DNA from: Stenotrophomonas sp. MMGLT7
GTDB taxonomy: Bacteria; Pseudomonadota; Gammaproteobacteria; Xanthomonadales; Xanthomonadaceae
Direction: 5' to 3'
Length of the DNA stretch: 64,000 bases
Assembly: GCF_021168555.1 (NCBI RefSeq)
Contig: NZ_JAJOZS010000006.1
Location: forward strand, 166,593-230,592
Numbering within the stretch: the stretch's first letter is position 1; each line of letters opens with the position of its first letter. A model generated the notes under the pieces. The model did no database searches, was not told the DNA's origin, and was given only the letters and a program-made list of their open reading frames with translations. Positions 8,219-35,148 of this stretch are shown in pieces. The translations under genes and the position numbers were made by a program.

Positions 8219-10309
8219 ATGAGCCTGCGCGTGGGGATCGACGTCGGTGGCACCTTCACCGATTTCGTGCTGTCCGATTCCAGCAGCGGCAAGCTGGCCT
8301 ATCACAAGCAACCCAGCACGCCGGACGATCCGTCGCGGGCGATCGCCGCCGGGGTCGGCCCGCTGCTGGCCGCCGCGCAGGTGCGGGCCGACCAGGTCGA
8401 CAGGGTGGTGCACGGCACCACCATGTCGTTGAACGCGATCCTGCTGCGCCGATTCGCACGGGTGGCGCTGGTTGTCTCGCCGGGCAACCGCGACATCCTG
8501 GAGATCGCACGGGTACGCATGAGCGACCCCTACGGGTTCTTCGCGATGCCGGAGGAGCCGCTGGCGCGGCGCGACCGGGTGTTCGAGTTCCCGGCTCGCC
8601 TGGGTGCGGACGGGAGCGTCGTGGCGACGCCCTCTGAAGCGGACTACCGGCAGCTGCAGGCGCGGATCGTGGCCGCGCAGGCGGACGCGGTGGCGGTGGT
8701 CCTGCTCAACGCCTGCGCCAACCCGGCCTTCGAGCAGGAGGTCGCGGTCGCGCTGCGTGGACGACTGGCGATCCCGGTGGCGGCTTCGACCGAGGTCTGG
8801 CCCGAGATCCGCGAGTATGAGCGTGCGGTGGTGGCGGTGATGAACGCAGGCATCGGGCCGCTGATGTACCGCTACTACGGCCAGCTGGCCGAGCGCCTCA
8901 ATTCGCAGGGGCTGGCTTGCCCGCTGACCATCACCACCAGCAACGGCGGCAGCGTGGACCTGGCCACGGCCCATGCCCGTCCCATCGACAGCATCCTGTC
9001 CGGACCCGCCTCCGGCGTCGTCGCCGCGATCTCGGTGGCACGCGAGGCCGGCGTGGAGCGGATCGTCACGTTCGACATGGGTGGGACCTCGGCCGACATC
9101 GCTCTGGCCGAAGGCGACGCGCCGGAGATCACCACACAGGTGATGCTGGGCGAGATCCCGGTGATCCTGCCGGTGGTCAACGTCAACGCCATCGGCGCCG
9201 GCGGCGGCTCCATCATCCGCGTGGACGATTCCGGCTTCCTCAAGGTGGGTCCGGGCAGCGCCGGTGCGGTGCCTGGACCCGCCTGCTTCGACAGGGGAGG
9301 AGATGAGCCGACCATCACCGACTGCTACCTGCTGTGCGGTTTCGTCACCGCGGACGGCTTCGCGGGAGGCAGCATGCGGCTTTCCATCGAGCGGGCAGAG
9401 CGCGCGCTGGAAGGTATCGCCCGGGCGCTGGGGTTGCAGGGTACGGATGCCACGGTGCGCGCGGCAGAGGCCGCGCTGCGCGTGGCCAGCTCGATGATGG
9501 GCACCGAAGTGCGCAAGACGCTGGCACGGCGGGGCTGCGACCCGGCGGACTTCACTTTGCTCGCGTACGGCGGGGGCGGCGCCACGCATGCCGCGCTGCT
9601 CGCCAATGAGGCCGCGCTGGAGCACATCCTGGTGCCGGTCCGTCCGGGCGTGCTGTGCGCACTGGGCGCGTCGCTGGCGGATTTGCGGCGCGATTTCGTG
9701 CGCAGCTGCAGGCTGGCGTTCGCCAGTGACGTGCCGGATGAGACCCAGGTCGCGCGTCTGGCCGCGGTGCTGCGGGAACTGCGCATGGAGGGCGATGCCT
9801 GGATGGCGGGCGTGACCGGCACCGGCGACCGTGTCCGTCGCTACAGCCTGTCGGCCGACATGCGCTACCGCGACCAGGCCTTCGATCTGTCGGTGACATT
9901 GCCTGATGCGTCCCTCGAGGGCGACGTGACCCGCGCCCTGCTGGAACGCTTCCATGCCGACCACCTGCGCCTGTACGGATTCAACGAGCCGGCCGCACCG
10001 ATCGAGATGAGCCGGGTATCGCTTTCGCTGATTGCCCCGACCGAGCGCACCGATTCGCCGGGACCGGCCGGGCGCGACCGGTCCGGGCCGCTCGCAGTCG
10101 CGAGAAGACCGCTGTTCTTCGCTGGGCGATGGCACGATGGCGCGGTGGTCCAGCGCAGCGAACTGGTCGCCGGGGATGCGGTGGAAGGGCCGGCGGTCGT
10201 CGAGCAGACCGACACCAGCGTGGTGGTGCCACCTCTCTGGCGCGCGACCTGGCTGGCCAGCGGCAGCCTCTCCATGCGCAGGTGCGCTCCGGAAGGAGCG
10301 CCGGCATGA
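8219..10309 (+). CDS. HyuA-type subunit: hydantoinase/oxoprolinase/carboxylase family
   Basis: A 696-residue protein with the actin-like ATP-binding opening GIDVGGTFTDFV (residues 6-17), which identifies the HyuA/OplA/acetone-carboxylase beta family. Further motifs are GTTMSLNA, the phosphate-binding FDMGGTSADIAL in the middle, NAIGAGGGSI, and the C-terminal LLAYGGGGATHA. Members pair with HyuB and use ATP to open a cyclic amide (5-oxoproline, N-methylhydantoin, caprolactam) or to carboxylate a ketone. Which of these applies here cannot be told. The stop codon overlaps the start of hyuB (ATGA). The protein has no export signal, so it acts in the cytoplasm. Confidence 0.9.
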   Translation: MSLRVGIDVGGTFTDFVLSDSSSGKLAYHKQPSTPDDPSRAIAAGVGPLLAAAQVRADQVDRVVHGTTMSLNAILLRRFARVALVVSPGNRDILEIARVRMSDPYGFFAMPEEPLARRDRVFEFPARLGADGSVVATPSEADYRQLQARIVAAQADAVAVVLLNACANPAFEQEVAVALRGRLAIPVAASTEVWPEIREYERAVVAVMNAGIGPLMYRYYGQLAERLNSQGLACPLTITTSNGGSVDLATAHARPIDSILSGPASGVVAAISVAREAGVERIVTFDMGGTSADIALAEGDAPEITTQVMLGEIPVILPVVNVNAIGAGGGSIIRVDDSGFLKVGPGSAGAVPGPACFDRGGDEPTITDCYLLCGFVTADGFAGGSMRLSIERAERALEGIARALGLQGTDATVRAAEAALRVASSMMGTEVRKTLARRGCDPADFTLLAYGGGGATHAALLANEAALEHILVPVRPGVLCALGASLADLRRDFVRSCRLAFASDVPDETQVARLAAVLRELRMEGDAWMAGVTGTGDRVRRYSLSADMRYRDQAFDLSVTLPDASLEGDVTRALLERFHADHLRLYGFNEPAAPIEMSRVSLSLIAPTERTDSPGPAGRDRSGPLAVARRPLFFAGRWHDGAVVQRSELVAGDAVEGPAVVEQTDTSVVVPPLWRATWLASGSLSMRRCAPEGAPA

Positions 10310-12339
10310 ACATGAGCTCCACCAGCATCGACACCATCGCGCTGGAGTTGATGTACCACAAGTTCAAGGCGACCACCGAGGAGATGGGCATCGCCCTGGG
10401 CCGGACCGCGTGCAGTTCTTACGTGCGCGAGACCCACGACTTCGCGACTGCCCTGTGCACGCCGGAGGGGCGCTTCTTCGCCTATCCGGCGGAGACCGGC
10501 ATCGCCCTCGGCATCGACCAGGATTGCAGCGCTTTCATCGCAGCTGTCGGCGAGATCGAGGAAGGCGACGTACTGGTGACCAACCATCCGTACCTGGCGC
10601 CGGGCGTGGGCAGCCATCTGCCCGACATCAACCTGCTCAAGCCGTACTTCTACGACGGCAGGCTGGTCTGCTACGGCTGGAGCTTCGCCCACTGCGCCGA
10701 CATCGGCGGCGGCGTTCCCAGCTCGATCAGTCCTGCGTTCGACACCCTGTTCCAGGAGGGGTTGCAGATCCCGCCGATGAAGCTGGCGCGGCGCGGGGTC
10801 GTCGATGAGGGCTTCATGGCGCTGTTGCGTGCCAACAGCCGTATCCCCGACATCGTCGCCGGCGACCTGCGTGCGCAGCTGAGCGCGCTGGCCGTGGGCG
10901 AGCGCCGGGTGCGCGAGCTGATCGCCCAGCACGGACTGCACACGGTGCTGGCCGCGCAGCGTGGCCTGGTCGAGTACGGCAAGTCGCGCGCCCGCGCGGT
11001 GGTGCGCCGGCACCTGCCGGACGGGGTGTACGAGTTCCACGACTACATGGACGACGACTACAACACGCGCATCCCGGTACGCCTGCGCTGTCGCATGGAA
11101 GTCAGCGACGGCAAGATCCACCTGGACCTGGCCGGCACCGATCCGCAGTTGGCGGCACCGTTCAACGTCCCCACCGGCGGCGTGCGCCATCCCTACCTGA
11201 CCAGCAAGCTGATGCACATGCTGTTCACCTACGATCCGGGGCTGCCGCTCAACTACGGCATCTTCGAGAACGTCACGGTGAACGTGCCGGCTGGTACGGT
11301 GATGAATCCGCAGATGCCGGCAGCGGTCGGCATCCGTCATGCCGGCGCGATCCGCTTCAACGACGCGGTGCTGGGATGCCTGGCTCTGGCCGATGCCGGG
11401 ATGGCGCCGGCCGCCAGCGGCGGCACGGTAATCCCGCTGGTGGTCTCGCAGACCAGTGCCGACGGCGGCAGCCGGCGCGTGGCGGTGGTCCAGGCACTGG
11501 CCGGCGGCGCGGGCGCGACCGGGCGCGGCGACGGCGCCAATGGCCGCGACCGCAGCCTGGCCAACATCAACAACACGCCCAGCGAGCGCAGCGAACTGGA
11601 ATTGAAGGTGCGTGTGGAGCAGTACGCGCTTTGCCGCGACAGCGGCGGCACCGGCTGTTTCCGCGGCGGCGTCGGGGTGGCGTACACGCTGCGGATGCTG
11701 GAGGAGGGCATGGAAATCATGGGACGTGGCCTGGAACGCTTCGATTTCCAGCCCTGGGGCGTGGCCGGCGGTGGCGCCGGTAATCCCTCGCAGGTCTGGC
11801 TCAATGCCGGTACGCCGGAGGCGCGCGACATCGGCAAGTTCGATCGCCTGCGACTGAAGGCCGGCGATACCCTGACCATCGTCACCCCGGGCGGTGGCGG
11901 CTACGGCCATCCCCATGACCGCGATCCGCAGCGCGTGTTCGAAGACGTGCGGCTCGGCCTGGTCTCACTGGAGTCCGCTCGCGAGGAGTACGGCGTGGCG
12001 CTGACCGCCGACGGTCTGGAGGTCGATGGCGAAGGCACCGCCGCCCTGCGCGCGAGACGTCCCGAGCGAGGCGAGGAAGTCCGGCTGGGTAGGGTCCGTC
12101 ATGCCTGGGAGCGGGTGTTCGACGATGCGCTGATGACGCGGATGGCCATCGCCCTGCTGGACGTGCCGGCCAGCGTGCGTCCTGCCGTGCGCCGCGAACT
12201 GTTCGAGACCGCCGTTCCCGGGGTGTCCACACATGGTGCACGGCTGCTGTGCGCGCCGGACCTGGACGCTGCCGCGGCGCGTGCGCGGCTGGAACAGGCC
12301 CTGGACGCACTCGATCGAAGCGGGAGGCGGGCCGGATGA
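10306..12339 (+). CDS. HyuB-type subunit: hydantoinase B/oxoprolinase family
   Basis: A 677-residue partner of the preceding HyuA. The ATG at 10306 shares ATGA with the hyuA stop, giving MNMSSTSIDTIALEL; the family typically begins this way, with TIALELMYHKFKATTEEMG. Other family marks are SSYVRETHDFATALC, DVLVTNHPYLAPGVGSHLPDI, HCADIGG and the glycine-rich C-terminal half ending GDTLTIVTPGGGGYG. HyuA and HyuB form a hetero-oligomer that performs ATP-dependent hydrolysis or carboxylation. The 4-base overlap means translational coupling and fixed subunit ratio. The last about 120 residues after the GGGGYG motif extend beyond the usual end and carry no motif I recognise. Confidence 0.9.
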   Translation: MNMSSTSIDTIALELMYHKFKATTEEMGIALGRTACSSYVRETHDFATALCTPEGRFFAYPAETGIALGIDQDCSAFIAAVGEIEEGDVLVTNHPYLAPGVGSHLPDINLLKPYFYDGRLVCYGWSFAHCADIGGGVPSSISPAFDTLFQEGLQIPPMKLARRGVVDEGFMALLRANSRIPDIVAGDLRAQLSALAVGERRVRELIAQHGLHTVLAAQRGLVEYGKSRARAVVRRHLPDGVYEFHDYMDDDYNTRIPVRLRCRMEVSDGKIHLDLAGTDPQLAAPFNVPTGGVRHPYLTSKLMHMLFTYDPGLPLNYGIFENVTVNVPAGTVMNPQMPAAVGIRHAGAIRFNDAVLGCLALADAGMAPAASGGTVIPLVVSQTSADGGSRRVAVVQALAGGAGATGRGDGANGRDRSLANINNTPSERSELELKVRVEQYALCRDSGGTGCFRGGVGVAYTLRMLEEGMEIMGRGLERFDFQPWGVAGGGAGNPSQVWLNAGTPEARDIGKFDRLRLKAGDTLTIVTPGGGGYGHPHDRDPQRVFEDVRLGLVSLESAREEYGVALTADGLEVDGEGTAALRARRPERGEEVRLGRVRHAWERVFDDALMTRMAIALLDVPASVRPAVRRELFETAVPGVSTHGARLLCAPDLDAAAARARLEQALDALDRSGRRAG

Positions 12340-31602: not shown

Positions 31603-31954
31603 TGGTGGAGCTGGCGGGAATCGAACCCGCGTCCGAAGGCACTCCATCCCCGGCACTACATGCTTAGCTCATCGTTGGATCTCACCCCTGGACAGCACGA
31701 TGTGCGAAGCGCATCCAGGGGCCAGCCTGCTTTATTTAGCCTATGGCTGACAGGCAGCCACCACCGGCGATTCCGTGATAATGACCCTACGTCGCGAGCA
31801 CGGACACAAGCGATTTCGGGGCTAGGCCTTAAGCGGCCAGTGCGTAGTTGTCGTCGTTGGCAACTATAAGTTTGCGGCTGGATTTACGAGGAAAGCTGCC
31901 CCCTCGGCATGCGCCAAGCGACTTCACAACCCCCGTCGAAACCAGTGCAGCCCC
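31603..31954 (-). ncRNA. ssrA: transfer-messenger RNA (tmRNA)
   Basis: The 352-nt RNA starts GGGGCUGCACUGGUUUCGACGG at 31954 and ends in the tRNA-like GCGGGUUCGAUUCCCGCC stem, then CAGCUCCACCA at 31603. The seven-base acceptor stem pairs. The tag reading frame at 31829-31861 encodes ANDDNYALAA after the resume GCC codon, then UAA. The RNA rescues stalled ribosomes with SmpB, whose gene is 2.7 kb to the right. Only the alpha/beta hydrolase-protease gene lies between. Confidence 0.97.
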
Positions 31955-32009: not shown

Positions 32010-32106
32010 GCGTTGAGACCGGCGCGGCTTAGCCTGGCTTCATCGGAACCGTGCGGCCGGGCCGGGCTGCGGGACTCGTTGTCGGCAGAACCAAGGAGGA
32101 TGGGCG

Positions 32107-34551
32107 ATGGCAACCAAGAAGCGTGGCGGCGTCGGCGGCACGAGCCGCCCGGCCGCGAACAAGGGCCGGACCACGGCTGCCGGGTCCGGGCCGGCCAGGA
32201 CCCGGCCGGCCGCGGCGAAGGCGCAGGCAGCCGCACCGGCCGATACCCCCGCGCAGGGCAAGGCGCTGACCGTGGTCTACGTCCACGGCATCGGCAACAA
32301 GCCGACGCCGGAAGTGCTGCGCTGCCAGTGGGACCGGGCGCTGTTCGGCCGGGCGATGGGCGAGCGCACGCGCCTGGCCTACTGGGTCAACCGCGAACGC
32401 TATCCCTCGCCCGAGCCGGGGACCTGCGGCGATCGCGACCAGGGGCCGGCGCTGAACCAGGCCGAGCAGCGCATCCTCAACGCGATGGGCGTGCCGCCGA
32501 CGATGGCCGACCTGCATGCGCTGGCCGACACCCTGGCGAGCACCCCGGAACAGCGCCTGCAGCTGCAACGCCTGCTCGAGGAACTGGAGCGGGCCGCGCC
32601 GGCGCCGGGACAACTGCAGGCCAAGGGGCCGCTGGATGCCATCAACCGCATGCTGCTGAAGCTGGTCTCGGCCGCGCTGCTGCAGGACGTGCACGACTTC
32701 TTCCATGTGCCGGCGCGCGCCGAGGCCATGCGCGAGAGCCTGCTGCAGCGGCTGCGCGCCGGCGGCGGGCCGTTCGTGGTGATCGGCCACAGCCAGGGCT
32801 CGATGATCGCCTACGACGTGCTGCGCGGCCTGGATCCGGCCGAGTTCGACATCCCGCTGTTCGTGACCCTCGGCTCGCCGCTCGGTCTGCCTGCGGTGCG
32901 CAGCATGTTCAAGCAGTGGACCGGTACCGGCAAGCTGCCGTTCCCGCCGTGCGTGCGGCGCTGGCTCAACGTCGCCGAGCGGCGCGACCCGGTGGCGCTG
33001 GACCCGGACCTGGGCGACGACATCAAGGATGCGAAGGGGCGCTTCCACAACATCGCCGGCGATCGCATCAACCCGGACTGGCGCAGCAATCCTCATTCCG
33101 GCTCGGGCTACCTGTCGATCGCGCAGGTACACGAACAGGTACGCGCCTGCGTCGGCGCCGGCTTCGACCAGCCGGTCTCCAATACCGTGCTGCTAAAGGA
33201 CCTGTCCGACCAGCTGGAGGCGCGCGATGCCGGCTACCGGCACGAGGTGCTGATCGAGCTGGGCAAGCTGGGCGAAGGGCAGGACGCGACGCCCGTGCGG
33301 CAGGCGCTGGTCGCAAGGCTGCGCCAACTGGCGGGCGCCTCCACCGGGCTGCGCGGCGAGCCGCTCGATGCCGCCATCGAGCTGGAGGACGGCCTGCAGC
33401 GCTACGTCTCCGCACGGCTGACGCGCTACGAGATCGAATCGCTGCGCAGCCAGTACGCGGCGCTGGGGCTGCGGCGGCTATGGCGCGATGCCGGCAAGCG
33501 CGCGCTGATCGCCCAGTCGCGCAGCGCGATCCAGGTCGACGCGGCGCAGGTGTCCTACCGCGCGCTCGGCCAGCGCATCGGCTGGGCGGTGCTCGATACC
33601 GGCATCGCCGCCTCGCATCCGCACTTCCTGGGCGAGGGGCGCGACGTCGTCGCCGCGCAGTGGGACTGCACCGAACGGGGCGCGCCCCGGCGCTTCGTGC
33701 GCGCCGACGGCGAACGTTTCGAGCGCATGGACGGCAACGGCCACGGCACCCACGTGGCCGGCATCATCGCCGGCCAGTGCCGCGCGCCGCTGCCGGGTGC
33801 CGCCGGCGAGGCGGTGGAGTTCTCGGGCATGGCGCCGCAGGCGCAGCTGTACGGGTTCAAGGTGCTCGACGACGAAGGCAACGGCCGCGACTCGTGGATC
33901 ATCAAGGGCATCCAGCAGGTCGCCGAGATCAACGAGCGCGCCGGCGGACTGGCGATCCACGGCATCAACCTGAGCCTGGGCGGCTGGTTCGACCCGGAGA
34001 GCTACGGCTGCGGCTTCACCCCGCTGTGCAACGAGCTGCGCCGGCTGTGGCGGCAGGGCGTGGTGGTGGTGCTGGCGGCCGGCAACGAGGGCCAGGCGTG
34101 GATCGTGCAGGGCGACGGCGAGGCCTATCCGATGAGCATGGACCTGAGCATCGGCGACCCGGCCAACCTGGAGGAGGCCATCGCCGTCGGCTCGGTGCAC
34201 AAGAGCAACCCGCACAGCTACGGCGTGTCCTACTTCTCCTCGCGCGGTCCCACCGCCGACGGCCGGCGCAAGCCCGACGTGGTGGCGCCGGGCGAGAAGA
34301 TCGTCTCGGCGCACTACCGCTACCGCCCGGACGATCCGTCCAGCTGGATGGTGGAGATGAGCGGCACCAGCATGGCCGCCCCGCACGTGTCCGGGCTGAT
34401 CGCCGGCTTCCTGTCGGTGCGGCGCGAGTTCATCGGCTTCCCGGACCGGGTCAAGCAGCTGCTGGCGGAGCACTGCATCGACCTGCGGCGCGATGCCTAC
34501 TTCCAGGGCAACGGCCTACCCAACCTGATGCGCATGCTCGGGGCGACGTGA
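32107..34551 (+). CDS. fusion protein: alpha/beta hydrolase plus subtilisin-like (S8) protease
   Basis: An 814-residue protein without signal peptide or membrane span. Residues 1-50 are Lys/Arg/Ala-rich and probably disordered. Residues about 52-330 form an alpha/beta hydrolase or lipase-like domain (TVVYVHGIGNKP, then GHSQGS with Ser229). After a helical linker (about 340-490) comes a subtilase with the full set: Asp497 in VLDTGI, His546 in GHGTHVAG, Asn660 in AAGNEG and Ser755 in GTSMAAP. AAGGAGG stands seven bases before the ATG. The gene lies between ssrA and smpB, whose products act together, but no functional link is proven. The lack of a secretion signal and propeptide suggests an intracellular enzyme. 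Confidence 0.88.
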   Translation: MATKKRGGVGGTSRPAANKGRTTAAGSGPARTRPAAAKAQAAAPADTPAQGKALTVVYVHGIGNKPTPEVLRCQWDRALFGRAMGERTRLAYWVNRERYPSPEPGTCGDRDQGPALNQAEQRILNAMGVPPTMADLHALADTLASTPEQRLQLQRLLEELERAAPAPGQLQAKGPLDAINRMLLKLVSAALLQDVHDFFHVPARAEAMRESLLQRLRAGGGPFVVIGHSQGSMIAYDVLRGLDPAEFDIPLFVTLGSPLGLPAVRSMFKQWTGTGKLPFPPCVRRWLNVAERRDPVALDPDLGDDIKDAKGRFHNIAGDRINPDWRSNPHSGSGYLSIAQVHEQVRACVGAGFDQPVSNTVLLKDLSDQLEARDAGYRHEVLIELGKLGEGQDATPVRQALVARLRQLAGASTGLRGEPLDAAIELEDGLQRYVSARLTRYEIESLRSQYAALGLRRLWRDAGKRALIAQSRSAIQVDAAQVSYRALGQRIGWAVLDTGIAASHPHFLGEGRDVVAAQWDCTERGAPRRFVRADGERFERMDGNGHGTHVAGIIAGQCRAPLPGAAGEAVEFSGMAPQAQLYGFKVLDDEGNGRDSWIIKGIQQVAEINERAGGLAIHGINLSLGGWFDPESYGCGFTPLCNELRRLWRQGVVVVLAAGNEGQAWIVQGDGEAYPMSMDLSIGDPANLEEAIAVGSVHKSNPHSYGVSYFSSRGPTADGRRKPDVVAPGEKIVSAHYRYRPDDPSSWMVEMSGTSMAAPHVSGLIAGFLSVRREFIGFPDRVKQLLAEHCIDLRRDAYFQGNGLPNLMRMLGAT

Positions 34552-34644: not shown

Positions 34645-35148
34645 TCAAGCATCCCGGTTGTGGCGGCGCATGATGCGCTGCTTGTCGCGCGCCCAGTCGC
34701 GATCCCTGGCCGCGTCGCGCTTGTCGTGGTCCTGCTTGCCCTTGGCCAGGGCGATCTCCAGCTTGATGTGGTTCTTGCTCCAGTACATCGCGGTGGGCAC
34801 CACGGTATAGCCGTCGCGCTCGACCCGGCCGATCAGCTTGTCGATCTCGTGCTTGTGCAGCAGCAGCTTGCGGGTGCGGCGGTCGTCGGCCACCACGTGG
34901 GTGGAGGCCTGGATCAGCGGGGTGATCTGCGCCCCGAACAGGAACAGCTCGCCCTGGCGCACGAAGGCATAGCTCTCGCCGATGTTGGCACGGCCGGCGC
35001 GGATCGCCTTGACCTCCCAGCCCTGCAGCGCCAGGCCGGCCTCGTAGCGGTCCTCCAGGTGGTACTCGTGGCGCGCACGCTTGTTCAGCGCGATGGTCTT
35101 GTGGGCCGTCGCGCCGTTTGCTTTATCCTTGCCGGGTTTCTTGCTCAT
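34645..35148 (-). CDS. smpB: SsrA-binding protein
   Basis: A 167-residue RNA-binding protein that delivers tmRNA to stalled ribosomes. The start at 35148 is [12 protein letters not shown]; family marks are [42 protein letters not shown] and the basic tail [23 protein letters not shown], which enters the mRNA channel. It is divergent from ratA by 61 bp, the normal arrangement in this bacterial group. The longer in-frame start at 35274 would overlap ratA. Confidence 0.97.

Follow-up and report, generated by a model that had tools for sequence, protein, structure and literature searches.

In the Hachiman and AVAST systems, nucleases of the metallo-beta-lactamase (MBL) fold are paired with trypsin-like proteases and remain inactive until the partner cuts them, and Lamassu and DRT also host an MBL-protease pair (PMC12799240; this and the other publications cited here are represented by part of their text). 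Relatives of these nucleases are also found alongside 'other diverse' families of protease, among which the main text of that publication names no subtilase. In NTP-dependent conflict systems, caspases invariably come with an alpha/beta-hydrolase gene, and a NucA nuclease can share its polypeptide with a flanking S8 domain (Kaur et al. 2020; PMC7159879). Phospholipases or endonucleases can replace gasdermin as effectors of CARD-NLR systems (PMC13236601), and the fungal subtilase HET-Q2 activates the co-encoded gasdermin HET-Q1 (PMC10989679, PMC12881547). Here, we analyzed a 64,000-nt stretch of DNA from Stenotrophomonas sp. MMGLT7 (contig NZ_JAJOZS010000006.1, positions 166,593 to 230,592; hereafter the window) and describe a gene at 32107..34551 (+ strand, as are all parts of the protein below; 814 aa plus stop) whose product joins a predicted alpha/beta hydrolase to an S8 protease, or subtilase. 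Other bacteria have gene pairs of a protease and its partner, of which this gene is likely a one-piece version. A literature search over the titles and abstract starts of the papers listed, covering few subscription journals, found no description of the fusion.

The likeness to the protease-gated nuclease pairs (HamM, AVAST, Lamassu, DRT and Canu; PMC12799240) would lie in an activating protease encoded with a hydrolytic partner. In contrast to those pairs, the protease in the window is of the S8 type rather than trypsin- or caspase-like, its partner is a lipase-like hydrolase fused into the same chain, and no sensor gene lies beside the gene. With an S8 protease and no adjacent MBL gene, it is not a protease-gated nuclease pair in the strict sense. 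The caspase-hydrolase pairings of conflict systems differ in sitting in MoxR-vWA and other multi-gene operons (PMC7159879), and CARD-NLR systems have an NLR-like ATPase at their core (PMC13236601); none was recognized beside the window gene, although no search aimed at one was made. HET-Q2/HET-Q1 offers the likeness of an S8 enzyme activating a co-encoded death effector, but is fungal and has a pore-forming gasdermin as the partner. IetS of the IetAS system shares the S8 domain (PADLOC, E = 1.1e-10), but we rejected membership of that system since the IetS-family score was 26.6 bits against an NCBIfam cut-off of 900; no IetA ATPase was recognized among the adjoining open reading frames (ORFs). 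The PADLOC 'subtilase' model PDLC03014 matched residues 299-807 with an E-value of 1.2e-71.

Architecture and conservation of the fused protein

A sequence-only reading of this DNA had placed a signal-less 814-residue protein, with a lipase-type motif and a complete S8 domain, between ssrA and smpB. The ORF list and translation, ARAGORN and Rfam confirmed the gene and its position, and both expected motifs are present: GHSQGS, the nucleophile elbow of the hydrolase (residues 227-232 with Ser229; 32785..32802), and SGTSMAAPH with Ser755 of the protease (codon 34369-34371). Pfam Peptidase_S8 matched the C-terminal half with an E-value of 1.1e-45, and Pfam, predicted structure and alignment together delimit an S8 domain at residues 468-814 (33508..34548), with Asp497, His546, Asn660 and Ser755 as the catalytic residues of a subtilisin fold. 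PHROGs matches were confined to this half. The structure predicted for the N-terminal half alone was a confident alpha/beta hydrolase, phospholipase A2/LCAT-like (residues 48-355; 32248..33171), in agreement with the earlier claim that this half has a hydrolase fold; the predicted fold and a Ser229-Asp294-His330 triad together place it in the alpha/beta hydrolase superfamily. The hydrolase contains low-confidence inserts at residues ~111-130 and ~161-180 (block means 53-63), and is preceded by a low-confidence, poorly conserved tail (residues 1-47; 32107..32247; predicted local distance difference test score <50 at residues 1-48, conservation 0.23).

Both active sites are invariant. Among 74 aligned proteins (chosen by hand from 240 listed relatives, plus P0001 and P0122), the S8 catalytic set was retained in 74/74, as was the hydrolase triad, including Ser229. 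Query coverage was ≥86% in the best 120 of 2426 relatives from a first search and ≥99% in the best 120 of 2821 from a second. Since the listed relatives align over almost the full length and neither catalytic set varies, the fusion is more than a chance event: it is real and conserved.

Between the two enzymes, residues 377-467 (33235..33507) are predicted to form a subtilisin propeptide of the I9 type, an element that the sequence-only reading had not reported. This assignment draws on structure alignment, on predicted strands and helices, and on the region being common to unfused relatives (probability 95.0, E = 4.1e-8). From residue 375-377 onward, the predicted structure aligns with those of pro-subtilisin E and pro-Tk-subtilisin, which share the fold and the order of propeptide and catalytic domain; those pro-subtilisins differ in having no N-terminal hydrolase, and the window protein in having no signal peptide. 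At the level of predicted structure an I9-type domain thus precedes the catalytic domain, and given this position between both enzymes the protease looks like a zymogen. A low-confidence loop at residues 466-474 (33502..33528) is the predicted autoprocessing region; next to or within it, Lys464 is conserved in 74/74 and Leu467 in 71/74 aligned proteins, and cleavage would probably occur here.

The highest 15-residue hydropathy within the first 60 residues was ≤1.55 in all 74 aligned proteins. With a signal-like stretch in none of them, we rejected a secreted exoenzyme, for the window protein and for its aligned homologues alike, as the sequence-only reading had anticipated. That reading had proposed regulated intracellular proteolysis; the intracellular location is supported and regulated proteolysis is plausible, and what it overlooked was the predicted propeptide and the separately paired relatives described below. 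Three cysteines are conserved despite the lack of a secretion signal: Cys521 (33667-33669; 74/74), Cys635 (34009-34011; 72/74) and Cys641 (34027-34029; 74/74).

Unfused relatives and their partner genes

We collected 35 loci at which a related S8 protease is encoded without the fusion. They comprise all 24 plasmid records that a tblastn search with the relative P0102 retrieved and 11 chromosomal loci, of which four (L033-L036) came from a genome-contig scan and seven (L210-L216) from searches of the families around two of its loci (a match in 4/149 and 5/151 genomes). At 31 of the 35 loci, a gene for a hydrolase lies directly downstream of the S8 gene. It encodes an alpha/beta hydrolase at 24 (17 plasmid records, mostly Rhizobium near-copies, and L034, L035, L210 and L213-L216) and an MBL-fold protein at seven (L194-L196, L211, L212, L266 and L269). 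The gaps between S8 gene and partner were 1-52 bp in the 15 loci for which they were computed. None of 74 generic S8 control loci had a partner of these families, the only ones that the control covers. The sequence-only reading had missed this pairing of unfused S8 proteases with a separate hydrolase or an Avs1a/LmuA-type MBL gene.

The four remaining loci showed neither partner. Nothing was recognized at L036 and L267, and L268, a distant S8 from Bacillus (32%), is possibly not a member of the family. At L033, a GMC-oxidoreductase/alpha/beta-hydrolase gene (1136 aa) lies 6 bp upstream and a metallophosphatase gene downstream (L033:3880-8655). Some paired loci carry further genes. L196 also has a Tle1-like hydrolase (9.2e-61); on a Sinorhizobium meliloti plasmid, a patatin-like gene lies 3 bp upstream of the S8 gene, which is followed by the MBL gene (L266:1341-5608), and a patatin gene is likewise found upstream of the S8-MBL pair at L195. 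The downstream hydrolase gene of L256 is annotated in two pieces. In two genomes of the family of Mycobacterium colombiense (L213, L214), a gene for a protein of 1230 aa comes after the S8 and hydrolase genes; the L213 copy, which was scanned, has LysM domains.

All seven MBL partners matched the PADLOC models LmuA (E = 1e-43 to 7e-53), Avs1a (1e-25 to 2e-37) and RTasMBL. As the system names are shared, we infer that these models cover the same MBL family as the systems in the cited part of PMC12799240, and that the MBL partners of the unfused proteases belong to the family found in protease-gated nuclease pairs. Two of these pairs also have defence-related neighbours. On the Methylorubrum plasmid pCMU01, Pycsar cyclase, E2 and TIR genes are followed by the S8 gene and its Avs1a/LmuA-type MBL gene (L194:3725-10400); the pair begins 288 bp after the Pycsar genes (PycC, 2e-220; E2, 1e-85; PycTIR, 4.5e-92). 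On a Rhizobium phaseoli plasmid, the pair is part of a row of FRG, S8, MBL, DUF3616 and SIR2 genes (L269:1108-7756), in which the FRG gene matches PDC-S15 (6e-66) and the SIR2 gene matches models of Argonaute-associated SIR2 (3.4e-38).

We related the fused and unfused forms in a tree of 62 S8 domains, of which 28 were controls drawn from the first 30 of the 74 control loci; L034, L043 and L063 were excluded as short or without an ORF, and the tree comprises the loci fetched before 18 later plasmid loci. The family split from the controls with support of 100/100. The fused proteins formed a single clade (100/100), nested in the hydrolase-partnered branch (95/90) next to enzymes paired in operons (92/71), and the MBL-partnered enzymes grouped with L036 (100/99). 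No gene of the separate-hydrolase or MBL partner families was found in the fetched stretches of 27 fused loci (for L001-L021, 1.5 kb on each side); an adjacent MBL pro-nuclease gene was seen in 0/27, the window gene included.

Distribution and the ssrA/smpB position

In the window, the fusion gene is preceded by an AAGGAGG ribosome-binding site (32093..32099, +), 7 nt ahead of the ATG. It lies divergent to ssrA, the gene for transfer-messenger RNA (tmRNA; 31603..31954, - strand; ARAGORN; Rfam RF00023, 209.5 bits), and convergent to smpB (34645..35148, - strand; ORF, 99% match of the query). Judged by eye from their translations, the genes further out are housekeeping-like, with an RND transporter and an outer-membrane factor on one side of the ssrA/smpB region and RatA-, RnfH-, BamE-, Fur-, RecN- and HrcA-like genes on the opposite side.

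Close copies were present in 22 of 198 genomes of the same family: 20 intact, one frameshifted and one remnant. The frameshifted copy, L021 (G174:C11), is split over two frames near residue 117, or reflects an assembly error (about 410 contigs); the remnant, L026 (G138:C11), lies between ssrA and smpB and keeps the hydrolase half, its S8 part not being found. The tmRNA tag differs in L010, L011, L013-L015, L018, L019, L021 and L026, which have a ANDDNYGSDFAIAA-type tag in place of ANDDNYALAA. In the class sample (369 genomes) and the phylum sample (398 genomes), the window's own genome alone matched at E = 1e-80, and the number of loci found outside the family by the genome-contig scan is a lower bound, to be read as at least that many. 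The ssrA-locus gene is under purifying selection (two of 210 pairs lay outside the filters, and L021 is frameshifted). Its patchy presence and two broken copies fit an accessory gene.

ARAGORN found tmRNA within 1.5 kb of all 22 ssrA-locus copies, so the position to which the sequence-only reading drew attention is real; its meaning was over-read, with 0/6 other fused loci showing this neighbourhood. For four fused relatives from the family that are more distant (L022-L025), ARAGORN detected no tmRNA in the 1.5 kb fetched around them, and no adjacent trans-translation gene was recognized in the ORF lists of the Microvirga locus L031 and the acidobacterial locus L032, where ARAGORN was not run. 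Of 30 smpB loci scanned, 15 had the fusion gene, ten were gene-free with tmRNA in reach (99 to 1071 bp from smpB) and five were gene-free without it. Since the position is not kept outside the lineage and gene-free loci exist within reach of tmRNA, it is best read as one lineage-specific insertion, and we rejected a link to trans-translation as a functional clue.

Other fused loci have varied neighbours. At L024/L218, a genome in which the fused protein is named Aquimonas voraii, a SIR2-like gene lies 3 bp after the fused gene (L218:7209-8276 and 8280-10535; SIR2_2, 1.9e-4, below the cut-off). A HigA-like gene at L025 and an IS5-type transposase gene at L023 were named by eye. The suggested survey for homologues beside ssrA/smpB or in defence islands gave 22 copies next to tmRNA and fused loci that mostly have no defence neighbours. 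We also rejected mobile cargo: with P0102 as the query, no plasmid or phage record covered 80%, and among the matches listed, two IMG/VR contigs (L111 and L112) carried the gene at their very end, which more likely represents a prophage edge at this locus than phage cargo.

Candidate function and rival explanations

Taken together, we see a roughly even chance that the window gene encodes a fused protease-effector module in which a lipase-like domain takes the nuclease's place, with hydrolase domain, propeptide and S8 protease in a single chain. This reading, like autoprocessing, activation and a defence role, is one that we infer by analogy with MBL-protease and caspase-hydrolase pairs, since protease, predicted inhibitor and putative effector lie in one polypeptide. 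The propeptide would inhibit the protease until autocleavage near Leu467. A trigger would free the protease, which would then release or activate the hydrolase, perhaps through cuts in the low-confidence inserts of the latter; the hydrolase would act on a lipid or ester, in infection or stress. Phage defence is possible for the fused family. A bolder version, which we regard as a doubtful though conceivable extension, casts these proteases as S8 'immune fuses': one subtilase clade would have swapped its effector between an Avs1a/LmuA-type pro-nuclease and lipase-like hydrolases, and the window lineage would have welded protease, inhibitor and lipase into a zymogen complete in itself, which would lyse or poison the cell that makes it once the protease is freed.

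Several observations weigh against an effector module of this kind. Pfam hydrolase models all fell short of their cut-offs on the window protein (Abhydrolase_6, E = 9.1e-5 and 23.7 bits against 26.3; Thioesterase, 18.9 against 26.4), and homology between the fused and the separate alpha/beta hydrolases was not detected (probability 10.9, with the nucleophile elbow alone aligned). The 35 unfused loci were all found by similarity, near-copies from Rhizobium make up most of the 24 hydrolase pairs, and the generic S8 control, testing these partner families only, says nothing about other hydrolases. The Rhizobium copies paired with an alpha/beta hydrolase mostly adjoin thiamine genes. PADLOC matched none of three separate hydrolases scanned, none of four scanned window neighbours and, SIR2 aside, none of the scanned neighbours of six fused loci away from ssrA, and the match to its 'subtilase' model could not be linked to a named system. 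Fused genes mostly lie outside recognizable defence neighbourhoods, and the window lineage keeps the gene at a core locus beside ssrA/smpB, where vertical inheritance fits a physiological role equally.

Such a role could be that of a protease that serves quality control or the stress response inside the cell and bears an esterase domain, with a possible link to ribosome rescue through its place between ssrA and smpB. The tmRNA beside all 22 ssrA-locus copies (the remnant and the frameshifted one included), the purifying selection and the lack of a recognized defence gene beside the window gene would all fit. Yet the position is not retained outside the lineage, both at L022-L025 and, as far as adjacent trans-translation genes were seen, at L031 and L032; one insertion explains the adjacency, given smpB loci that have tmRNA nearby and no fusion gene, and patchy presence with two broken copies fits an accessory gene. 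We consider this explanation unlikely. Alternatively, the protease itself might be the effector and the hydrolase a sensor or tether, with a lipid or acyl ligand freeing the protease to degrade cell or phage proteins. The hydrolase precedes the propeptide in the chain, where a regulatory domain could naturally sit, and a lipase-like pocket could plausibly hold a ligand; however, the full hydrolase triad is invariant in 74/74, more than binding alone would call for, and the partners of unfused relatives include effector-like MBL proteins of the Avs1a/LmuA kind, leaving a sensor role rather improbable. A Tle-type lipase effector of type VI secretion that carries a protease would also need no signal peptide, and the window's own genome has a type VI sheath gene. 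Six relatives were scanned, three of them picked for an already listed Tle3 match, and two of the six scored just above the cut-off of the Tle3 Pfam model. The sheath gene, however, is found in 10 of 21 ssrA-locus carrier genomes (one copy frameshifted) and absent from 11 (44/198 in the family), the window protein has no Tle match, and no secretion gene was recognized among the ORFs adjoining the fusion gene, so that we regard this as very unlikely.

Protease-activated, co-encoded effectors are a recent theme in bacterial immunity, so far, in the part of PMC12799240 cited here, with trypsin-like and caspase-like proteases. If the fused protein is indeed a protease-effector module, its family would add subtilases and lipase-like partners to this theme, and would do so in a one-chain version, with two active sites and a predicted cleavage region, that could be tested by single inactivating substitutions.
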